This document shows positions 3,248 through 57,801 of a stretch of 62,260 nucleotides of DNA, one piece after another (positions within the stretch are counted from its first letter, which is position 1; the number at the start of each line of letters is the position of its first letter). The notes beneath the pieces are model-generated. The model worked only from the letters and a program-made list of their open reading frames with translations, ran no database searches and was not told where the DNA came from. This stretch comes from Phycisphaerales bacterium (GTDB lineage Bacteria; Planctomycetota; Phycisphaerae; SM23-33), in NCBI GenBank assembly GCA_018644725.1, contig JABGPZ010000036.1, positions 1 to 62,260 of the forward strand, read 5' to 3'. A program made the position numbers and the translations under genes.

Positions 3248-3438
3248 AGCGCCGAAGGTGCGGAAGTATTTAGCCGGGGGCGTGAGCCCCCGGTAGAGTG
3301 GCCCACGAGCAGAGCCCCGAAGGGGCGAAAGAAACGTCTATCCTTCATTCTTCTTTCGCCCTTTCAGGGCTTGGTTTTCTTTCCGCCTGTCCGGGGGCTT
3401 ACGCCCCCGGCTAAACACTGTTGCCCTTTCAGGGCAAA
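3248..3438. repeat. Family A palindromic repeat, copy 1 (six-hairpin mirror element)
   Basis: An about 190-bp element made of successive hairpins: a GCGCCGAAGGTGC-type hairpin, CCGGGGGCGTGAGCCCCCGG, GCCCCGAAGGGGC, then in mirror order GCCCTTTCAGGGC, CCGGGGGCTTACGCCCCCGG and TGCCCTTTCAGGGCA. Copies 2 and 3 are at 12943-13137 and 57519-57709. It carries no coding capacity or transposase, so it is MITE- or REP-like. It fills the gap between queC and priA. Confidence 0.85.
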
Positions 3439-12942: not shown

Positions 12943-13137
12943 AAGCGCCGGAGGCGCGAAAGGATTTAGCCGGGGGCGTAAGCCCCCGGTAGATGATCTG
13001 TAGAAGTCAAGCCCTGAAGGGGCGAAAGAGAAATGTAGAAAGGGCGTTTCTTTCGCCCCTTCGGGGCTCTTTTCTTTTCTCCGCATTCCGGGGGCTTACG
13101 CCCCCGGCTAAATCCTGTTGCCCTTTCAGGGCAAAGA
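12943..13137. repeat. Family A palindromic repeat, copy 2
   Basis: Same order of hairpins as 3248-3438: GCGCCGGAGGCGC, CCGGGGGCGTAAGCCCCCGG, GCCCTGAAGGGGC, GCCCCTTCGGGGC, CCGGGGGCTTACGCCCCCGG, TGCCCTTTCAGGGCA. It occupies the intergenic space upstream of the symporter and downstream of xylA. Confidence 0.87.
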
Positions 13138-42114: not shown

Positions 42115-45054
42115 TTACTTCGTCGGAAGATTCGCGGGCGCAGCCGGCTGGATCAGCATGTCGTCCCAGCGGGTGCGGAGTGTGCGCAGCCGGTTTTCCT
42201 GGGCGAGGTCATAGCTGCCGAGGTATTGCGCATAGGTGTCCATCCAGGTCAGCAGGCGCGCCTTGTCGTCGGCCGAGAGCTCGACCTTGCCGTGGCCGGA
42301 ATTGATCCTCGTCCACAGTGCGCTGTTGGCGGCCATCCCCTCGTGGGGGATCGAAATCGGCTTGCGGTATTGCGTCCAAACCTGGTCGTAGAGGCTGGGC
42401 TTGCCGTAGCGCGTCAGCTTGGCGTAGGCGCTCTGGGGCGTGGAGAGGTCGATGTGTTTGGCTTTGCCCGTGGGGTTGTGGCAGCCGACGCAGTGGGTGT
42501 TGAGCACGGGTTGGACGAGGGTATCGAAGCGCATCGGCCAAGAGCCTTCCGGCCCGACGGTAATTTTCGACGGCGAGCGTCGCGTCGCGAGCGAGACTTT
42601 GGCGGCGGGCGCTTCGTAGCGGTTTTCGTGGCAGCCGACGCAGGACTGACTCGTGCCGGGCTGGAGATAGGTCCCCGAGCGCATCGTCTGGATGCACACG
42701 CCGTCCTTGTCGAGCGCCTGGAAGAACAGCAGCACGCCCGACGGTGCGCGGAACATTGCCGAGCCATCTTGTTCGACGGGGACGGTTCCGAGGATGCACT
42801 TGCCGGGATCGTCGCGCGTCAGCCCCAGTACGGGTTGGTTCATCGTGGGGTGGGTCTTGGCGGGGACGGCCACGATGCGTAGCGATTTGATCGTGCCGGA
42901 TTTGACACCCTTCATGCCCTTGTAGATGTCGGAGAGGATGAACGTGCCTTCGGGTTTGGCGGCCCAGTCGACGCTGGAAGAGAGGACGGTGGGGCAGTGG
43001 CGCGGGCGCAGTGGTGCGGGGTTCATCGTCGAAATTGACGCATCGCGGTAGAGCAGATCGAGGTTGCCGAAGCGGTCATAGAGGTAGACCCCGCTGCCGT
43101 TGGTACTGGCGTTCTTGCCGGCGCGGGCGCCTTGGCGTTTCAGAGCGGTGTTGCTCCATGTGACGAGGTAATAGTCTTCCGAGAGCGGCCAGGGGTTGGA
43201 GTACCAGTTGCTCGGCCAGCCTTCGGTTTCGGGGAAGCACACGTCGGGGGTGATGCGCTCGATGGGTTCGGCGCCGTCACGGCCCTTGGTGGTGTCGATG
43301 AGGATCAAGCTGCCACCGGTGATGGCGTGGTGGCCGCAGGCGGTGGCGATGATCTTCGAGCTGCCGGGGATCGAGCGGCCTTCGAAAATGCAGTGGGGGT
43401 TGCGGGTGTAGTTGCCGTAGACGTGCATCGGATTCGTGCCATCGGGGTTGGTTGACCAGAGGCTCATGAACGGCATGTTGTCGCGATCGACATAGTCCCA
43501 GCGGCTGTAGAGCACCTTGCCGTCGGCCGCGACCGAAGGGGTCCATTCGAACATTTCCATCGGGCTGATGGCCGTGATGGTTTTGCGGTCGGTCCCGAGG
43601 GTGTGCAGCGTGTAGATGGCGCAGGGGCGATTGGGCCCGCCGCCGCAACGGACATAGATTTCGCCGAGGTCGGGTGTGGCAACGGTTTTCATCGCCGAAG
43701 CGCGGTCACACAGGACCGACTGGCTGCGGCGTGTGGAGAGGAAAATGATTTCGCCGTTGGGCAGATATCGTGCGTCGAAATCGTTGTATTTCCCGCTGGT
43801 GAGTTGCGTAAGTTTGTTGGTGGCAAGATCGAGTTCGAAGAGGTGATAGAACGAGGGTTCGGGGACGTTGGCCTTGTCGAGTTTGTTCTTTTCGGCGGCG
43901 AGGTTGGGATCGTATTTGCACCACGCGAAAAGGACTTTCTTGCCATCGAAGCTCAGCATCGGCCGCAGGAATGAGCCGGGGGTTTGGAATTGTTTGTGCG
44001 TGGTGAGAGGCGTGTATTTCGGGTTGCCGGATTTGATGCCCGTGATCGTTCCGACGCTGCCGCCGGGTCGCGACCACCAGCCGAGGTATTGGTCGGACAT
44101 GTGGTTGAAGCTGCCGTAGACGCGTTTGGTCGCGAGCATCGTGTCGAAGTTCAGCAGGGGGTTTTGCAACGCGAGTTTTCGCACGGCCTTGCGGGCGCGG
44201 AGGTAGAGCGCTTCGAGGGCGGGATCGGCTTTGGCGGTTTGGGTGGCGGTTTCGACGGCGGCGAGTTCGGCGAGTGCTGCTTGGGTGTCCAGGCCGCGCT
44301 TGGCGAGGTCGGCTGCGAGGGCCCGGCCAGAGGTCAGCGTCTTGGCGATCCCGTTCTGATAGAGGCCGTCAGCGGCATTGGCGGGATTGCCCGTGGACGA
44401 CCATTTCGACGTGCTGCACTGGGTCGCCTTGCGCCCGCGCGCGGCGTTGTACGGCTTGTCGACGCAGTAGACTTCGACCTCGTCGAGATGCATATAACCC
44501 TTGTGCGGAAGTTGCAGCCGGACGTAGCGCCCCTTCGCGTCGTTGAGTTTGGCGTTGAGCGGTTTGCCGTCGGGCTTGCCGCCGAAAACGGTGCCGTCAT
44601 TTTTGAAGGCGGTGGTCCAGCTTTTTCCGTTGGTGGAGACTTTGATTTGTAGCTTGGCCATGCGGGCGGGGGCGCTTTTGTTGTCGCAGCGATTGTAAAC
44701 GCGAACGACGTCGATGGCCTTGACACTGCCGAGGTCAACCTGCCACCAGGGCGAGGCGTTCTCGGAGGTGTGGAATCCGTAGCCGCCATTGATGATTCCG
44801 TCGCAACCGCCGGCGGCATCGAGCGCTTTGTGTGCGGACGACTGTGTCCAGGTCTTGACCGTCTTGGTAGGTTTGAAGCGGAGTGAAAGTTGCTTGAGGT
44901 AGTCCGCGCGCAATTGTTGGTTGAAGGTTTTCGGCGCGGCGGGAGTTGCCTTGGATTGCTTTTTTTTGGACACTTTCGTTTTGCCGGGCTTGGCGAGAAG
45001 GACACAGCTCAGCAGGCAAAAAAATAGAGCGGCAAAGGTCAGTCGTCGGTGCAT
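42115..45054 (-). CDS. Exported dihaem protein: discoidin domain + HzsA-like domain
   Basis: 979 residues. A signal peptide (FAALFFCLLSCVLLA) is followed by a basic linker, an F5/8 type C (discoidin) domain at about 70-195 (GYGFHTSENASPWWQVDLGS, ARMAKLQIKVSTNGKSWTTA), a helical segment and then a long beta-propeller-like region (FNDFDARYLPNGEIIFLSTR-type repeats) of the kind found in hydrazine synthase alpha subunits. The C-terminus holds two haem c motifs, CVGCHENRYE (about 802) and CVGCHNPTGKAKH (about 853). GAGGAAA precedes the ATG. Members outside anammox bacteria have no known reaction. A carbohydrate-binding, periplasmic redox role is an inference. Confidence 0.88.
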   Translation of the reverse strand: MHRRLTFAALFFCLLSCVLLAKPGKTKVSKKKQSKATPAAPKTFNQQLRADYLKQLSLRFKPTKTVKTWTQSSAHKALDAAGGCDGIINGGYGFHTSENASPWWQVDLGSVKAIDVVRVYNRCDNKSAPARMAKLQIKVSTNGKSWTTAFKNDGTVFGGKPDGKPLNAKLNDAKGRYVRLQLPHKGYMHLDEVEVYCVDKPYNAARGRKATQCSTSKWSSTGNPANAADGLYQNGIAKTLTSGRALAADLAKRGLDTQAALAELAAVETATQTAKADPALEALYLRARKAVRKLALQNPLLNFDTMLATKRVYGSFNHMSDQYLGWWSRPGGSVGTITGIKSGNPKYTPLTTHKQFQTPGSFLRPMLSFDGKKVLFAWCKYDPNLAAEKNKLDKANVPEPSFYHLFELDLATNKLTQLTSGKYNDFDARYLPNGEIIFLSTRRSQSVLCDRASAMKTVATPDLGEIYVRCGGGPNRPCAIYTLHTLGTDRKTITAISPMEMFEWTPSVAADGKVLYSRWDYVDRDNMPFMSLWSTNPDGTNPMHVYGNYTRNPHCIFEGRSIPGSSKIIATACGHHAITGGSLILIDTTKGRDGAEPIERITPDVCFPETEGWPSNWYSNPWPLSEDYYLVTWSNTALKRQGARAGKNASTNGSGVYLYDRFGNLDLLYRDASISTMNPAPLRPRHCPTVLSSSVDWAAKPEGTFILSDIYKGMKGVKSGTIKSLRIVAVPAKTHPTMNQPVLGLTRDDPGKCILGTVPVEQDGSAMFRAPSGVLLFFQALDKDGVCIQTMRSGTYLQPGTSQSCVGCHENRYEAPAAKVSLATRRSPSKITVGPEGSWPMRFDTLVQPVLNTHCVGCHNPTGKAKHIDLSTPQSAYAKLTRYGKPSLYDQVWTQYRKPISIPHEGMAANSALWTRINSGHGKVELSADDKARLLTWMDTYAQYLGSYDLAQENRLRTLRTRWDDMLIQPAAPANLPTK

Positions 45055-45284
45055 GGTTGAAGTTTCCTCGGGGAGTTGGGGGTCTATGCGGTATCAGTAT
45101 GATGGATGTCCCGCGATTTGGAAAGTGAATTTTTAGTTTCTGATGTATGATCTTTTTGTGCTCAATGTTGGAACCTAGGGCGTAGGATTTCGGATATTCC
45201 AATAATTGGTGTTCCCTATCGTTTCTCTATGGAGTAGACTCGGAATCTGAAATCTGGTTTTTCCCATGATCGAAAGGATCTCCC

Positions 45285-46823
45285 ATGCAGAGCATCACCC
45301 GCCGAGGATTTTTAACCGCCAGCGCCACGACGGCCGCATGGACAGTGGCCCCGACGCGCCTGTTCGCCCAAGCCGCCAAAGTCGCCCCCCCCGCCAATCC
45401 GAATATCGTGTTCATCATGTCCGACGATCAGGGCTACGGCGACGTCGCGTGCAACAATAAAAAAGCGAAATTCAAGACCCCCGGCATCGACCGCATCGCC
45501 CGCGAGGGAATGCGCTTTACCGACGCGCACAGCCCCTCGGCCGTCTGCACCCCCACGCGCTATGCGCTACTCACGGGCCGCTATAGCTGGCGGAGCCGGC
45601 TGCAAAATGCCGTGCTGAAGTCGGGCGTACCCCCGTTGATCGCCAAAGACTTGATGACCGTCCAGCGCTTCCTCAAGCGGAACGGCTACAAAACCGCGTG
45701 CATGGGCAAGTGGCATCTCGGGTTCAAGTATGACCTGCCCGCCGGGAAAACCATCTCCAAGGACCGGGGCAAAAAAGGTGCCATTCCCGTCGGATCAAAA
45801 ATTATAGAAGGGCCGATCGAGCGCGACTTCGACGTGTACCGCGGATTCCACCATGCCGGCGAGATGCGGACGTGGATCGAGCAGGATCGCGTGACGGAGA
45901 ACTTTGACCACCCCGAGAAGATGCTCCCGCGCATCGCCAAGTGTAGCATTGACTACATCAAAGAGCGCGGCGAAAAGAAGGACGGGCCATTCTTCCTCTA
46001 TATTCCGTTCAACTCGCCGCACGGGCCGATCGTGCCGAGCAAGGAATGGAAGGGCAAATCCAAGATCAACGCCCACGCCGATTACGTGATGCAGACCGAT
46101 GACGTGGTGCGGCGGATTGTCAAAGCGCTCGACACTGCCGGCCTCGCGAAGAACACGCTCGTGGTGTTCACGACCGATAACGGCACGTCGCCATCGGCGA
46201 ACCTCCCCCAACTGCGCAAGGCCGGACACGATTCGAGCGGCGGCCTGCGCGGGGCCAAGGCCGATGCGTGGGAAGGGGGCCATCGCGTGCCATACGTCGT
46301 GCGCTGGCCGGGGACCATCAAGCCGGGCAGTGTCTGCGACGACACGATCTGCCACACCAACTTGATGGCGACCTGTGCAGAGATCCTCGGCAAAACACTG
46401 GAAGACAATGAGGGTGTGGACAGCTTCTCGATTTTGGGTCTGCTCCAGGGCAAGGCCGATGCCGCGCCGTCGCATCCTTATGTGATTCACCATTCCATCC
46501 GCGGCCATTTCGCGATTCGCCGAGGCAAGTGGAAGTTCCTCGCGTGCAAAAATTCCGGCGGCTGGGCCAAGGGCGGCGACAACAAGCCCTCCCAACTGTA
46601 CAACATGAAGGCCGACCGCGGCGAGAAGATCAACCTCGTGTCTTCGCGTCGTGAGATCGCCGAAGAACTGACCGGCCTGCTGGAGGCCGCGATTGCCAAT
46701 GGCCGAACCCGGCCTGGGACTCCACAGAAAAACGATGTCCCCGTCGATCTGTGGAAAAAGGACAGTGAAGCCAAGGTCAAAGCCAAAAAGAAAGCCAAGG
46801 CCCGAGCCAAGGCCAAGAAATAG
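45285..46823 (+). CDS. Tat-exported type I sulfatase
   Basis: 512 residues, arylsulfatase A-like. Twin-arginine signal ITRRGFLTASATTAAW at the N-terminus. Metal site NIVFIMSDDQGYGDVACNN. Formylglycine motif SPSAVCTPTRYALLTGRYS with Cys converted in trans. Further markers are GKWHLGFKYDLPAG and TDNGTSPSANLP. It hydrolyses sulfate esters, probably on algal or host polysaccharides. The C-terminus is a very Lys/Ala-rich tail (KVKAKKKAKARAKAKK). GGATCTCCCATG gives a ribosome-binding site. The maturase is not in the window. Confidence 0.95.
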   Translation: MQSITRRGFLTASATTAAWTVAPTRLFAQAAKVAPPANPNIVFIMSDDQGYGDVACNNKKAKFKTPGIDRIAREGMRFTDAHSPSAVCTPTRYALLTGRYSWRSRLQNAVLKSGVPPLIAKDLMTVQRFLKRNGYKTACMGKWHLGFKYDLPAGKTISKDRGKKGAIPVGSKIIEGPIERDFDVYRGFHHAGEMRTWIEQDRVTENFDHPEKMLPRIAKCSIDYIKERGEKKDGPFFLYIPFNSPHGPIVPSKEWKGKSKINAHADYVMQTDDVVRRIVKALDTAGLAKNTLVVFTTDNGTSPSANLPQLRKAGHDSSGGLRGAKADAWEGGHRVPYVVRWPGTIKPGSVCDDTICHTNLMATCAEILGKTLEDNEGVDSFSILGLLQGKADAAPSHPYVIHHSIRGHFAIRRGKWKFLACKNSGGWAKGGDNKPSQLYNMKADRGEKINLVSSRREIAEELTGLLEAAIANGRTRPGTPQKNDVPVDLWKKDSEAKVKAKKKAKARAKAKK

Positions 46824-46909: not shown

Positions 46910-48556
46910 CTAGCCCTTGATGATTTTCTTGGCGACGTCGTCGAGGGCGTCGGTCATGAAGGGGAGCTTGGTGACTTCTTCGGTTTCCCGGTTGGCCGAC
47001 ATGAGGTCGTCGCGGGAAATTTCGGAGAGCTTGAACTTGCGCGCGCCGGCCATGAACTGTTGCAGGCCGCAGGCGAGCTTGTCGGCATAGCCGTACATTG
47101 CGATCGCGCCGAAGGGGATGTTCTTCATTTCATCCGCGCCGACCTTGTTCTTGACGGCTTCCCAGCCGGCGAAGATTTCGTCGGGATAGGTGCCGATGGC
47201 CTTGACGCTCTGGGGCAGCTCGTCCCAGCGGCCGTTGTATTGGGCCTTGGTCTCGGGCTGGAAGACGCCCTGGATGTTCGAGCCGAGGTAGCCCGGAATC
47301 ATCGGCGCGCGGCCCATGCAGATCAGCTTGGTATAGGGTGCGCACATGCCGATGCCCTTGAAGAGGTGGTCTTCGCGTGCGAAGCCGCCAGCGAGGGAGA
47401 TGTCGGGGACCTTCAGGCCGGACTCTTCGAGCAGCTTGCAGTATTCGTAGGTCTTGGCGTGGAGGTGCAGCGAGGGGACGCCCCAATATTCCATCATGTT
47501 CCACGGGCTCATGCCGGTCCCACCGCCCGCGCCGTCGATGGTCAGCAGGTCGAGTTTGGCTTCGGCTGCACAGCGAATCGACAGTGCCAGTGCTTCCATG
47601 CCATACGCGCCGGTCTTGAGGGAGATGCGCTTGAAGCCCATCTCGCGCAGGTCGGCGACGGCCTTGAGGAAGCCGGCCTTGACGTCTTCGGCCGTGTCGA
47701 TGTCCGTTCCGCCCAGGCGGCTGTGGCGAGCAAACGATTTGATCGCGCGCGCTTTGTAGGCCGCTTCGGCTTCGGGGTCATACGGATTGGGGTCGACGAC
47801 ATAGCCGCGGTCCTTGAGGAATTTCGCGTATTCGATGTCGGTGACCTGAATTTCGCCGCCGATGTCTTTGGCGCCTTGGCCCCACTTGAGCTCGAGGATC
47901 ACTTGGTCGCCGAACTTGTCGAGGATGTATTGCGCGACGCCGTTGCGGGTGTCTTCGACGTTCATCTGGACGATGACCGCGCCGTAGCCGTCATAGTATT
48001 TCAGGAACGTGTTGATGCGACGGTCGAGTTCCGGCGCGTCGGTGATCTTGCCGCCGCCAAGGGTCGACTTGCGGTCGACGCCGACGACGTTTTCGCCGAT
48101 GACGATCGGGAAGCCGCACAGCGCGGCGCCGACGGCGAAGCTGTCCCAGTATTTCGCAGCGATGAACGTCGAGCCCAGCGCGCCGGTCATGATCGGCACG
48201 CGGCACTTGGTTTTGATCTCGCCGCCGAAGCTGGTTTCCACATTCACGTTCGGGAAGATGCAATCATCGGGATCGTTGGTGAGGTTCGACGGCAGGCCCT
48301 TGGCACCGTATGCGTAGCCTTGGATCCGAACGCCGTGATAGCCCGCACCGTTGGCGACGATGTTGGACGATCCGGACGTGATCTCGCCGAAGTTGCGCGG
48401 GTAGAGCATCTTGCGCCCAACCAGCGACGACATCCATGTTTCACACTTGCCCTTGCAGTCACTCGTACAGAGCGTACACAGACCGCTTTCGCAGGCGTCG
48501 CCGCGGTTGACGGTTCCAATGGCATCGTTTCGTTTGCGCCAGTCAATCATTGTCAT
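46910..48556 (-). CDS. Glutamate synthase-like FMN-binding protein
   Basis: 548 residues. An N-terminal Cys cluster (CESGLCTLCTSDCKGKC) precedes the FMN-binding TIM barrel of glutamate synthases: NVNVETSFGGEIKTKCRVPI, VILELKWGQGAKDIGGEI, LLTIDGAGGGTGMSPWNMM and DISLAGGFAREDHLFKGI. Stand-alone proteins of this type occur in archaea and anaerobic bacteria and may form glutamate synthase with separate amidotransferase and Fe-S subunits, none of which is present here. AAGGAG precedes the ATG at 48556. Divergent from an NrpR homologue with palindromes in the shared 158-bp region, so nitrogen control is likely. Confidence 0.9.
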   Translation of the reverse strand: MTMIDWRKRNDAIGTVNRGDACESGLCTLCTSDCKGKCETWMSSLVGRKMLYPRNFGEITSGSSNIVANGAGYHGVRIQGYAYGAKGLPSNLTNDPDDCIFPNVNVETSFGGEIKTKCRVPIMTGALGSTFIAAKYWDSFAVGAALCGFPIVIGENVVGVDRKSTLGGGKITDAPELDRRINTFLKYYDGYGAVIVQMNVEDTRNGVAQYILDKFGDQVILELKWGQGAKDIGGEIQVTDIEYAKFLKDRGYVVDPNPYDPEAEAAYKARAIKSFARHSRLGGTDIDTAEDVKAGFLKAVADLREMGFKRISLKTGAYGMEALALSIRCAAEAKLDLLTIDGAGGGTGMSPWNMMEYWGVPSLHLHAKTYEYCKLLEESGLKVPDISLAGGFAREDHLFKGIGMCAPYTKLICMGRAPMIPGYLGSNIQGVFQPETKAQYNGRWDELPQSVKAIGTYPDEIFAGWEAVKNKVGADEMKNIPFGAIAMYGYADKLACGLQQFMAGARKFKLSEISRDDLMSANRETEEVTKLPFMTDALDDVAKKIIKG

Positions 48557-48591
48557 TTGGTTCTCCTTGTGGCAAAAGCTAGAGGTTGTTG

Positions 48592-48607
48592 CGGTAATGA
48601 ACTTCCG
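48592..48607 (-). promoter_or_regulatory. Imperfect NrpR-type operator at the glutamate synthase-like promoter
   Basis: CGGTAATGAACTTCCG (plus strand): GGTA and TTCC half-sites separated by 6 nt, the spacing described for methanogen NrpR sites. It overlaps the expected start point of the 48608-48636 promoter. Confidence 0.35.
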
Positions 48608-48636
48608 AATGTAAACAACGGGAAACGGATCAGCAA
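48608..48636 (-). promoter_or_regulatory. Promoter of the glutamate synthase-like gene
   Basis: Minus strand TTGCTG, 17 nt, TACATT, with a leader of about 45 nt. Confidence 0.55.
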
Positions 48637-48679
48637 GGAAGGATGGATGGTAAAATCGAAGAAAAGTAAATAAATTATC

Positions 48680-48708
48680 TTGCCCTTCCGTAAGATTTCC
48701 GGCAAAAT
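48680..48708 (+). promoter_or_regulatory. nrpR-like gene promoter, leaderless arrangement
   Basis: TTGCCC, 17 nt, CAAAAT, 6 nt, ATG. The -10 lies inside the palindrome at 48700-48713. Confidence 0.5.
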
Positions 48709-48713
48709 TGCCG
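48700..48713. promoter_or_regulatory. Palindrome overlapping the nrpR-like -10 box (probable autoregulatory operator)
   Basis: CGGCAAAATTGCCG, a perfect palindrome with an AA centre. A near-identical palindrome CGGTAAAATTACCG lies at 48786-48799 inside the gene. Confidence 0.5.
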
Positions 48714-48714
48714 T

Positions 48715-49719
48715 ATGGACAGAAAACAAAAGACAAAAAACAGGATTCTCTCTACGCTTTGCGGGCATTCGGAACCGGTCTCAAGCGGTAAAATTACCGA
48801 AATGCTTCACGCGGCAGGGGTCATGGTTTCCGAACGGACGGTCCGGCTGCATTTGGTCGAGGCCGATGCCGATGGGCTCACCGAGAATCATCCACGCAAG
48901 GGGCGCACGATCACGCCGCTGGGCCTTGAGGAGATTCGCGTCTTGCAGACAGTTCAGCGGGTGGGCTATCTTTCAGCGAAGATTGACCAGATGACCTATC
49001 GCATGAGTTTCGACCTTCAGCGTCGCAGCGGCACGGTCGTGGTCAACACCTCCATCGTCGATGTCTCGCTGCTCTATCGCTACAGCCGCGAGGTGTGCGA
49101 GGTGTTTCGCCAGGGCTATGCCATGGGCACCCGCATGTGTCTGCTCGCCGAGGGCGAACGCATTGGCGACGTGACGATTCCGCCGGGCAAGGTGGGGTTC
49201 TGTACCGTTTGCACGATCACGATCAACGGCGTTCTGCTCAAGCATGGCATTCCCGTGGCGAGTCGCTTTGGGGGCTTGCTCGAATTGCGCGGCGGCGAAC
49301 CGACGCGGTTTGTCGAGGTGATTCATTATGACGGCACGAGCATCGACCCGCTGGAAGTGTTCATTCGAAGTGGCATGACGAATTATCACGGTGCGATCAC
49401 CGACGGCAATGGCCGCGTGGGGGCGTCGTTTCGGGAACTGCCTTCGGGCTGCCGTGAGGCCGTGGTCCATATTGGCGAAGAGCTGCAAGCCATCGGTCTC
49501 GGCGCAATTCAGGACATCGGCCTCGCCGACCAGGCGATCCACGGCGTGCCCGTGGCACCGGGGCGCATCGGCATGATTCTCGTCGGCGGGCTCAACCCGA
49601 TCGCGATCCTTGAAGAACGCAACCACCGCGTGGACTCGATGGCGCTCAGCGGCCTGCTCGAATTCAACCGCCTCCACAGCTACGAAGAACTGCCCAAACG
49701 CCTCAAACGATTGATGTAG
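48715..49719 (+). CDS. NrpR-family transcriptional regulator (winged helix + one NrpR domain)
   Basis: 334 residues. N-terminal winged helix (ILSTLCGHSEPVSSGKITEM, GVMVSERTVRLHLVEADADG). From about residue 80 a single NrpR (DUF128) domain: GRTITPLGLEEIRVLQTVQR, RRSGTVVVNTSIVDVSLL, VPVAPGRIGMILVGGLNPIA and a closing SGLLEFNRLHSYEELP. In methanogenic archaea NrpR represses nitrogen-assimilation genes and is released by 2-oxoglutarate. Here it faces a glutamate synthase-like gene, the expected kind of target. The start at 48715 follows the leaderless pattern. Confidence 0.9.
   Translation: MDRKQKTKNRILSTLCGHSEPVSSGKITEMLHAAGVMVSERTVRLHLVEADADGLTENHPRKGRTITPLGLEEIRVLQTVQRVGYLSAKIDQMTYRMSFDLQRRSGTVVVNTSIVDVSLLYRYSREVCEVFRQGYAMGTRMCLLAEGERIGDVTIPPGKVGFCTVCTITINGVLLKHGIPVASRFGGLLELRGGEPTRFVEVIHYDGTSIDPLEVFIRSGMTNYHGAITDGNGRVGASFRELPSGCREAVVHIGEELQAIGLGAIQDIGLADQAIHGVPVAPGRIGMILVGGLNPIAILEERNHRVDSMALSGLLEFNRLHSYEELPKRLKRLM
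48786..48799. promoter_or_regulatory. Second palindrome CGGTAAAATTACCG inside the nrpR-like gene
   Basis: A perfect 14-bp palindrome about 70 bp into the coding region, differing from the promoter copy only by one T/C (and A/G) pair. Centre-to-centre distance is 86 bp, close to eight helical turns. Confidence 0.4.
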
Positions 49720-57424: not shown

Positions 57425-57801
57425 TAAAAAAGTAGTGCCTGTCCGCTCTGTATAGAATATCAAGACTTTCCATGTAAGGAATTTCCATGACGAGATTTTT
57501 CTGTTTGTTTGTATGAATTGAGGCCTGAAAGGCCGGCCGTCGATAGCCGGGGGTGTAAGCCCCCGGACCCGTGCGAAATTCAGTCGAGCCCCGAAGGGGC
57601 GGCAGACAGTAAACCGGTGATTTTCTGTCGCCCTTTCAGGGCTCAATTGGTTGGACCGCTTACCGGGGGCTCACGCCCCCGGCTATCCACTGTCGCGCCT
57701 CCGGCGCTTACATAACCACAGAAAACAAGAAAGAAAACTATGTTCTATACAAAAGTAGTGCCTGTCCCTACTTTTCAAAAGTAGTGCCTGTCCCTACTTT
57801 T
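57425..57801. repeat. Family A copy 3 nested between Family C repeats
   Basis: Left: an incomplete C repeat (AGTAGTGCCTGTCC at 57431). Centre: A3 at 57519-57709 with GGCCTGAAAGGCC, CCGGGGGTGTAAGCCCCCGG, GCCCCGAAGGGGC, GCCCTTTCAGGGC, CCGGGGGCTCACGCCCCCGG and GCGCCTCCGGCGC. Right: two tandem C cores, AGTAGTGCCTGTCCCTACTT (57753-57801). No gene is seen in 57397-57809. Confidence 0.87.

Follow-up and report, generated by a model that had tools for sequence, protein, structure and literature searches.

In the 62,260-nucleotide contig JABGPZ010000036.1 of a Phycisphaerales bacterium (assembly GCA_018644725.1), hereafter the window, the gene at 42115-45054 on the minus strand encodes a protein that joins a discoidin domain to a dihaem cytochrome c related to HzsA, the alpha subunit of hydrazine synthase (HZS). 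Our preferred, still tentative reading is that this protein, with its lectin domain, serves as the alpha component of an HZS-like redox complex of non-anammox type, which would probably act at glycans. This reading builds on the homology and fold of the protein, on a recurring partner gene of HzsB-HzsC type and on a conserved residue triad in the discoidin domain.

The open reading frame (ORF) is intact from ATG to stop (979 codons) and GAGGAA, a plausible ribosome-binding site, lies about 10 nt 5' of the ATG. An initial annotation, made from the letters of the DNA, had described a signal peptide, a discoidin domain, an HzsA-like propeller and two CXXCH motifs, with a sulfatase next door. All of these were confirmed by the translation, the Pfam matches and the fold comparison (Table 1). 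The N-terminal hydrophobic stretch, recognized by eye in the translation, is predicted to direct export of the 979-residue protein. The Pfam F5/8 type C match covered residues 71-187 (E 9.9e-16). The HZS_alpha family (PF18582) matched with E 6e-26 and 91.3 bits, against a cut-off of 26.6; this match covers the middle (haem alphaI) domain of HzsA and not the propeller, the latter being evident from the fold.

Orthologue family, fold and haem ligands

A scan of public genomes with six peptide patterns taken from the window protein returned 27 loci. In 26 of these the architecture recurred, whole or in part, at about 50% identity. The hosts were Planctomycetota, Verrucomicrobiota, Hydrogenedentota, Armatimonadota and one bin labelled Nitrospiraceae. 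Because the patterns derive from the window protein, the 26 loci lean to its close relatives. The recurrence of the architecture at such identity across several phyla indicated that it is not a product of chance. A further 10 distinct orthologue loci were obtained from sampled Planctomycetota genomes, bringing the total to 36 after exclusion of one paralogue (L035) and of three repeats (L096, L097 and L100, repeating L012, L017 and L031). The tree and the column tables comprised 33 of the 36 loci (all except L034, L095 and L099) plus the window protein, that is, 34 rows. The lectin domain was present in 32 rows, being missing from L028 and encoded in another frame in L029. In the FastTree phylogeny, which carries long-branch warnings, the 34 orthologues formed one clade (support 100), apart from seven HZS_alpha paralogues of the window genome and from 12 HzsA sequences.

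We have modelled the protein with AlphaFold2 on a 26-sequence alignment (the window protein and 25 orthologues), with a mean predicted local distance difference test score (pLDDT) of 78.6. The top solved structure in Foldseek was the alpha subunit of Kuenenia hydrazine synthase (5c2v_A, E 6.9e-28). VIA-align superposed residues 299-954 of the model on residues 52-802 of that chain (Z 29.7, root-mean-square deviation 3.4 Å, 547 residues), a span running from the propeller through the second haem domain; the next-best entry was a TolB propeller (Z 24.8). Profile-profile alignment to HzsA (E 3.1e-25) included both haem motifs. The window protein shares with HzsA (5c2v, NF052339) the propeller/middle/C-terminal layout, the alphaI and alphaII CXXCH motifs, a His near His772 and a partner of HzsB-HzsC type, but it adds the lectin domain and a helical hairpin and sits outside the anammox gene set.

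The relationship did not extend to HzsA identity. The window protein scored 35 bits with the HzsA equivalog model NF052339, against a cut-off of 800. The window genome had no true HzsA at E 1e-20, and 27 of the 392 genomes of the phylum exceeded the NF052339 cut-off; the 12 HzsA loci returned from these 27 genomes were those used for comparison. According to the accessible text of two papers, the iron of HzsA haem alphaI is held by Tyr591, and the CXXCH His587 together with Cys303 holds a zinc (PMC12607021; PMC12758564). Residue counting along one HzsA reproduced His587, Tyr591, Cys303, His689 and His772. Tyr813 of the window protein falls in the Tyr591 column, where one further orthologue has Tyr and the remaining 32 of the 34 carry Gln, Asn, His, Ser, Thr, Lys, Glu and others. 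Since this column varies freely among the orthologues, we do not accept Tyr813 as proof that the haem is ligated as in HzsA, and a Tyr ligation in the window protein would be at best the accident of a single member. The Cys303 column held Tyr, Phe or His in the 34 orthologues; Cys303 is also missing from some true HzsA, both in our column table and in a published paper.

The initial annotation had preferred another chemistry to that of nitrogen, and in this it agrees with our data, the identity with hydrazine synthase having failed both the residue and the equivalog tests. Hydrazine synthesis is very unlikely because the NF052339 score lies far below the cut-off and the Tyr591 and Cys303 columns are not kept; we hold with high confidence that the window protein lacks hydrazine chemistry.

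The orthologues have a haem alphaI signature of their own, CxGCHExR, with Glu or Asp at position 810 and Arg at position 812 (33/34 each). For haem alphaII, the alignment points to His921 as the likely second ligand. The invariant propeller residues include N317-H318-M319, R442-R443, C470, H484 and H575-H576; among them, His318, Cys470, His484, His575 and His576 were found in all 34 orthologues and are mostly absent from HzsA. These invariant His and Cys residues may line an active site different from that of HzsA.

A fused HzsB-HzsC-like partner gene

A recurring neighbour of the orthologues encodes a protein of about 620 residues, in which a beta-propeller at the N-terminus is followed by a dihaem domain of CCP/MauG-like type. 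Its alignment with a fused HzsB-HzsC from an anammox genome spanned 679 positions (28%, E 4e-59); with the separate HzsC the identity was 34% and with HzsB 25%. The propeller of the copy from the window genome had HzsB (5c2v_B) as its best fold match (TMt 0.77); the haem half was modelled at low confidence. In a neighbour survey based on a codon-usage gene caller, which may miss small genes, the partner was present in 11 of the 36 orthologue loci. It shared the strand of the orthologue in ten of these, upstream of it in nine and downstream in one, and was convergent in the last.

The two genes also occurred together at the genome level. Across the 392 Planctomycetota genomes, in which two to three candidates per genome were scored and the counts are lower bounds, the orthologue was found in at least 11 and the partner in at least 31, with both present in all 11 orthologue genomes. 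The hypergeometric P was 1e-13 by genome, 1.5e-12 without the window genome and 4e-7 by family, the last value assuming about 100 families and correcting for kinship by the family count only. We consider a link between the orthologue and the fused partner to be probable.

In some loci the run that contains the partner also includes additional HZS_alpha genes, an aldo/keto reductase gene or the gene of a small propeller protein of Mal s 1-like type. The aldo/keto reductase occurred in 6/36 loci, a count that leaves out a distant match in L020 (28%, 177 aa, about 8 kb away). The small Mal s 1-like protein, which has a hydrophobic N-terminus, occurred in 5/36 loci and was adjacent in all five. 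Same-strand runs were seen in L014 (5722-11730), L021 (251-12829), L029 (6609-16511) and L099 (7617-19811), each with the fused HzsB-HzsC-like gene and one to three HZS_alpha genes, sometimes with the Mal s 1-like or the aldo/keto reductase gene. We regard these four runs as a candidate multi-cytochrome operon.

In its accessible text, the study of Hagglund et al. 2025 (PMC12758564) describes clades I-IV, in which, as here, an alpha-like gene is co-located with a fused beta-gamma-like gene. The loss of Tyr591 in clades I-III agrees with its loss among our orthologues. Clades I-II flank an FG-GAP gene, whereas our loci have the aldo/keto reductase or the Mal s 1-like propeller instead. The lectin-tailed clade may or may not correspond to clade IV. 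The words discoidin, carbohydrate and sulfatase do not occur in the accessible text of that paper on non-anammox HZS homologues.

According to the initial annotation, a clustering of homologues with nitrogen-cycle genes would speak against its reading. In part such a clustering was found, as the orthologues travel with HzsB-HzsC homologues, but the catalytic residues tested in these partners are gone: gammaCys165, gammaHis144 and gammaAsp168 were changed in 8/8 partners examined.

The partner would be compatible with another explanation, in which the window protein is a periplasmic electron carrier or peroxide-handling cytochrome. Its haems would then do no more than pass electrons, the CCP-like partner reducing peroxide, its lectin domain would merely anchor it to the envelope or slime, and its haem alphaI would perform no substrate chemistry. 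Membership of the partner in the CCP/MauG family and the loss of most of the tested HzsA/HzsC residues fit this explanation, and a canonical His-ligated haem would suit electron transfer. The large set of invariant propeller residues, however, seems to exceed the needs of a simple carrier, and we judge this explanation to be somewhat unlikely.

The lectin domain and the sugar-enzyme context

The nearest solved sequences of the discoidin domain were F-type lectins, namely FBP32 (3cqo), the streptococcal Sm-hPAF, the eel agglutinin (1k12) and fucolectin-related sequences. In the eel lectin, fucose is contacted by His52, Arg79 and Arg86, according to the accessible part of PMC5712786. The orthologues keep a corresponding triad (His95, Arg122 and Arg131 in the window protein), and the 26 residues between His95 and Arg122 agree with the eel lectin numbering. 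The F-type lectin relatives and the kept triad supported the "carbohydrate-binding-type" label of the initial annotation. Judged from this sequence likeness, the domain resembles an F-type lectin and is a putative binder of fucose-type glycans.

The proposed linkage to polysaccharide enzymes fared differently. The arylsulfatase that diverges from the window gene bears a Cys-type CTPTR motif. In the neighbour survey of 36 orthologue loci, none had an adjacent sulfatase, and three had one somewhere in the fetched flanks, one of these being a 62-residue match. A close homologue of the neighbouring sulfatase was found in at least 41 of 384 genomes of the phylum and in 2 of the 11 orthologue genomes, the window genome included; not all 11 need belong to the draw of 384. 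With 0/36 adjacent and 2/11 co-occurring, we have rejected the sulfatase linkage as a family trait. The commonest families among 106 neighbour proteins included aldo/keto reductase (6), CCP_MauG (6), Mala_s_1-like (5) and GFO_IDH_MocA (4). The oxidoreductase families in this neighbourhood are of kinds that often act on sugars. A fucosidase search returned two partial GH29 matches, one at a contig end, perhaps parts of a single broken gene.

The window genome (2.54 Mb) carries eight HZS_alpha genes and about 59 sulfatases. A sulfatase directly adjoins two of the eight HZS_alpha genes, that of the window and that of paralogue C13 (chance P 0.06), and three of the eight have one no more than two genes off, C100 being the third (P 0.04); both values assume about 59 sulfatases and about 2,280 genes. 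The sulfatase clustering in this genome is borderline only.

These data bear on the explanation that the window protein belongs to a sulfated-polysaccharide locus and acts together with the adjacent sulfatase. The divergent sulfatase lies 230 bases off and the C13 and C100 paralogues offer similar settings, and the idea is in print for planctomycete-type cytochromes: in its accessible text, PMC5615132 describes exported planctomycete-specific cytochromes (PSCyt/PSD) with carbohydrate-binding modules, often near sulfatases. The window protein is likewise an exported cytochrome with such a module, but it has HZS_alpha instead, and none of its Pfam matches (to E 1) was to a PSCyt/PSD domain. Given the 36 loci without an adjacent sulfatase, the 2/11 co-occurrence that includes the window genome itself and the borderline linkage in that genome, we find this explanation improbable.

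Among the HZS_alpha proteins of the window genome, four of eight carry a discoidin or NPCBM module (the window protein, C13, C77 and C38), and six of eight, the window protein included, carry at least one discoidin, NPCBM or formylglycine-generating enzyme (FGE)-like module. The FGE-sulfatase domain was seen in three paralogues and one neighbour protein, the paralogue fusions lying at 7711-10881 of L065 (C20), 4607-7738 of L067 (C16) and 1-3273 of L068 (C38). The formylglycine-generating enzyme has a cysteine pair. Three of the four FGE-like domains have an RGGSWRD stretch without the cysteine pair, the fourth (C38) being cut by the contig end, and we have rejected these domains as a link to sulfatases. 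In the two complete paralogues the domain is probably a binding fold rather than a sulfatase-activating enzyme, since RGGSWRD lacks the cysteine. A search for HAO-like multihaem proteins and hydrazine dehydrogenase (PF13447) gave no match, the control being equally silent, and is uninformative. A genome of the same family as the window genome (G400) is strongly expanded in such genes: a first inspection gave 106 candidates, and ten matches of HZS_alpha type reached E 1e-100.

Table 1. Features of the lectin-bearing cytochrome gene and its divergent neighbour (positions in the window)
Feature	Coordinates	Strand	Evidence or conservation
Lectin + HzsA-like dihaem cytochrome c, 979 aa	42115..45054	-	ORF/translation, Pfam, fold
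N-terminal hydrophobic signal sequence, about residues 1-21	44992..45054	-	Translation; cleavage site predicted
F-type-lectin-kind discoidin domain, residues 71-197	44464..44844	-	PF00754/PF22633; PDB sequence relatives
His95, first of putative fucose-type triad	44770..44772	-	31/32 orthologues with domain; aligned to eel lectin
Arg122, second of triad	44689..44691	-	32/32 orthologues with domain
Arg131, third of triad	44662..44664	-	32/32 orthologues with domain
Helical hairpin linker, about residues 227-296	44167..44376	-	Predicted secondary structure
Beta-propeller, about residues 299-705	42940..44160	-	Fold match to HzsA and TolB propellers
His575-His576, putative functional pair	43327..43332	-	34/34 orthologues; His lacking at these positions in 12 HzsA
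HZS_alpha middle domain, residues 720-810	42625..42897	-	PF18582
Haem alphaI motif CVGCH, residues 805-809	42628..42642	-	Cys, Cys, His in 34/34 orthologues
Tyr813, HzsA Tyr591 column	42616..42618	-	Tyr in 2/34 orthologues (window protein one of the 2), 12/12 HzsA
Haem alphaII motif CVGCH, residues 855-859	42478..42492	-	Cys, Cys, His in 34/34 orthologues
His921, candidate second ligand of haem alphaII	42292..42294	-	33/34 orthologues; one column from HzsA His772
Intergenic stretch of 230 bases between the divergent genes	45055..45284	.	Coordinates
Arylsulfatase, divergent, not kept beside orthologues	45285..46823	+	PF00884 E 5.8e-51; neighbour survey

Elsewhere in the window, matches to the Acido-Lenti-1 RNA at 3248-3436, 12944-13133 and 57521-57708 occur as inverted pairs, one copy per strand, with about 95 bases between the arms and an arm identity of 34-38 of 46. 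These pairs look like a dispersed inverted-repeat element and not like separate small RNA genes. The window also holds an NrpR-type regulator (48715-49719), divergent from a glutamate-synthase-domain protein (46910-48736). NrpR is a nitrogen regulator best known in archaea.

Proposed mechanism and meaning

Under our preferred reading, an exported c-type dihaem protein of common stock with the hydrazine synthase alpha subunit would be the alpha-type partner of the protein that fuses an HzsB-like propeller to an HzsC-like dihaem domain of the CCP/MauG kind, the two forming a non-anammox HZS-like assembly. The F-type-lectin-like N-terminal domain would dock the protein on a glycan, perhaps a fucose-containing one. 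The peroxidase-like partner and haem alphaI might then carry out electron transfer or the oxidation of an organic substrate at that glycan, with the chemistry placed at a face of the propeller where the set of conserved His, Cys and Arg is not that of HzsA.

Several observations weigh against this reading. The window protein departs from the RXDX4(R/K) spacing motif, with six residues instead of four, and some orthologues lack the Asp. F-type lectins have an Arg-to-Arg spacing of 7, whereas in the window protein it is 9 and the domain is fused to a cytochrome. Given the variable Asp and the more distant second Arg, the bound sugar may differ from fucose. The two partner genes of the window genome lie on C88 and C106, contigs that carry no HZS_alpha gene. 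Since the C13-type paralogue of this genome likewise co-occurs with the partner (3/3), the tie may be to HZS-like systems generally, and an abundance of such cytochromes in some genomes may account for part of the co-occurrence. There was no sulfatase or glycosidase among the 25 commonest Pfam families of the 106 neighbours, rarer families being outside that list; with this and no adjacent sulfatases, sugar-cleaving enzymes are not a conserved context.

The protein might instead have kept a nitrogen chemistry and act on nitric oxide (NO), hydroxylamine or ammonia, much as hydrazine synthase does, in a non-anammox bacterium. The common fold, the partner type and Tyr813 in the Tyr591 column would fit, but this is very improbable: just 2 of the 34 orthologues have that Tyr, the Cys303 column is occupied by Tyr, Phe or His, the three gamma residues are absent from 8/8 partners and the window genome has no HzsA match at E 1e-20.

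Beyond the glycan-acting HZS-like complex that we favour, we have considered a broader proposal, in which several bacterial phyla use the HZS architecture, its nitrogen ligands lost or never present, as a haem oxidase or peroxygenase that docks on glycans, the lectin cytochrome targeting the glycan and the partner supplying oxidant or electrons. We regard this proposal as doubtful.

HZS_alpha proteins have already been described outside anammox bacteria, as has the pairing of their genes with fused beta-gamma ones (accessible text of PMC12758564), and a broader enzyme family with other substrates has been suggested (PMC10732223, in the part available). We found no paper on a lectin-tailed HZS_alpha clade in our searches of PubMed Central, subscription papers lying outside its coverage. 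If glycans are the target, the clade would point to a haem-based attack on sugars, a question for planctomycete and verrucomicrobial cytochromes that has been raised in print for the PSCyt proteins (PMC5615132, accessible text). The cross-phylum lectin-tailed clade and its recurring fused partner suggest that the HZS scaffold serves other chemistry, and they provide a defined gene pair for testing such non-hydrazine chemistry. Few known enzymes are as strange as hydrazine synthase, and where it came from is a matter of debate. If the glycan-docked oxidase proposal were true, hydrazine synthase would have branched off from a family of sugar-linked cytochromes that is widespread.

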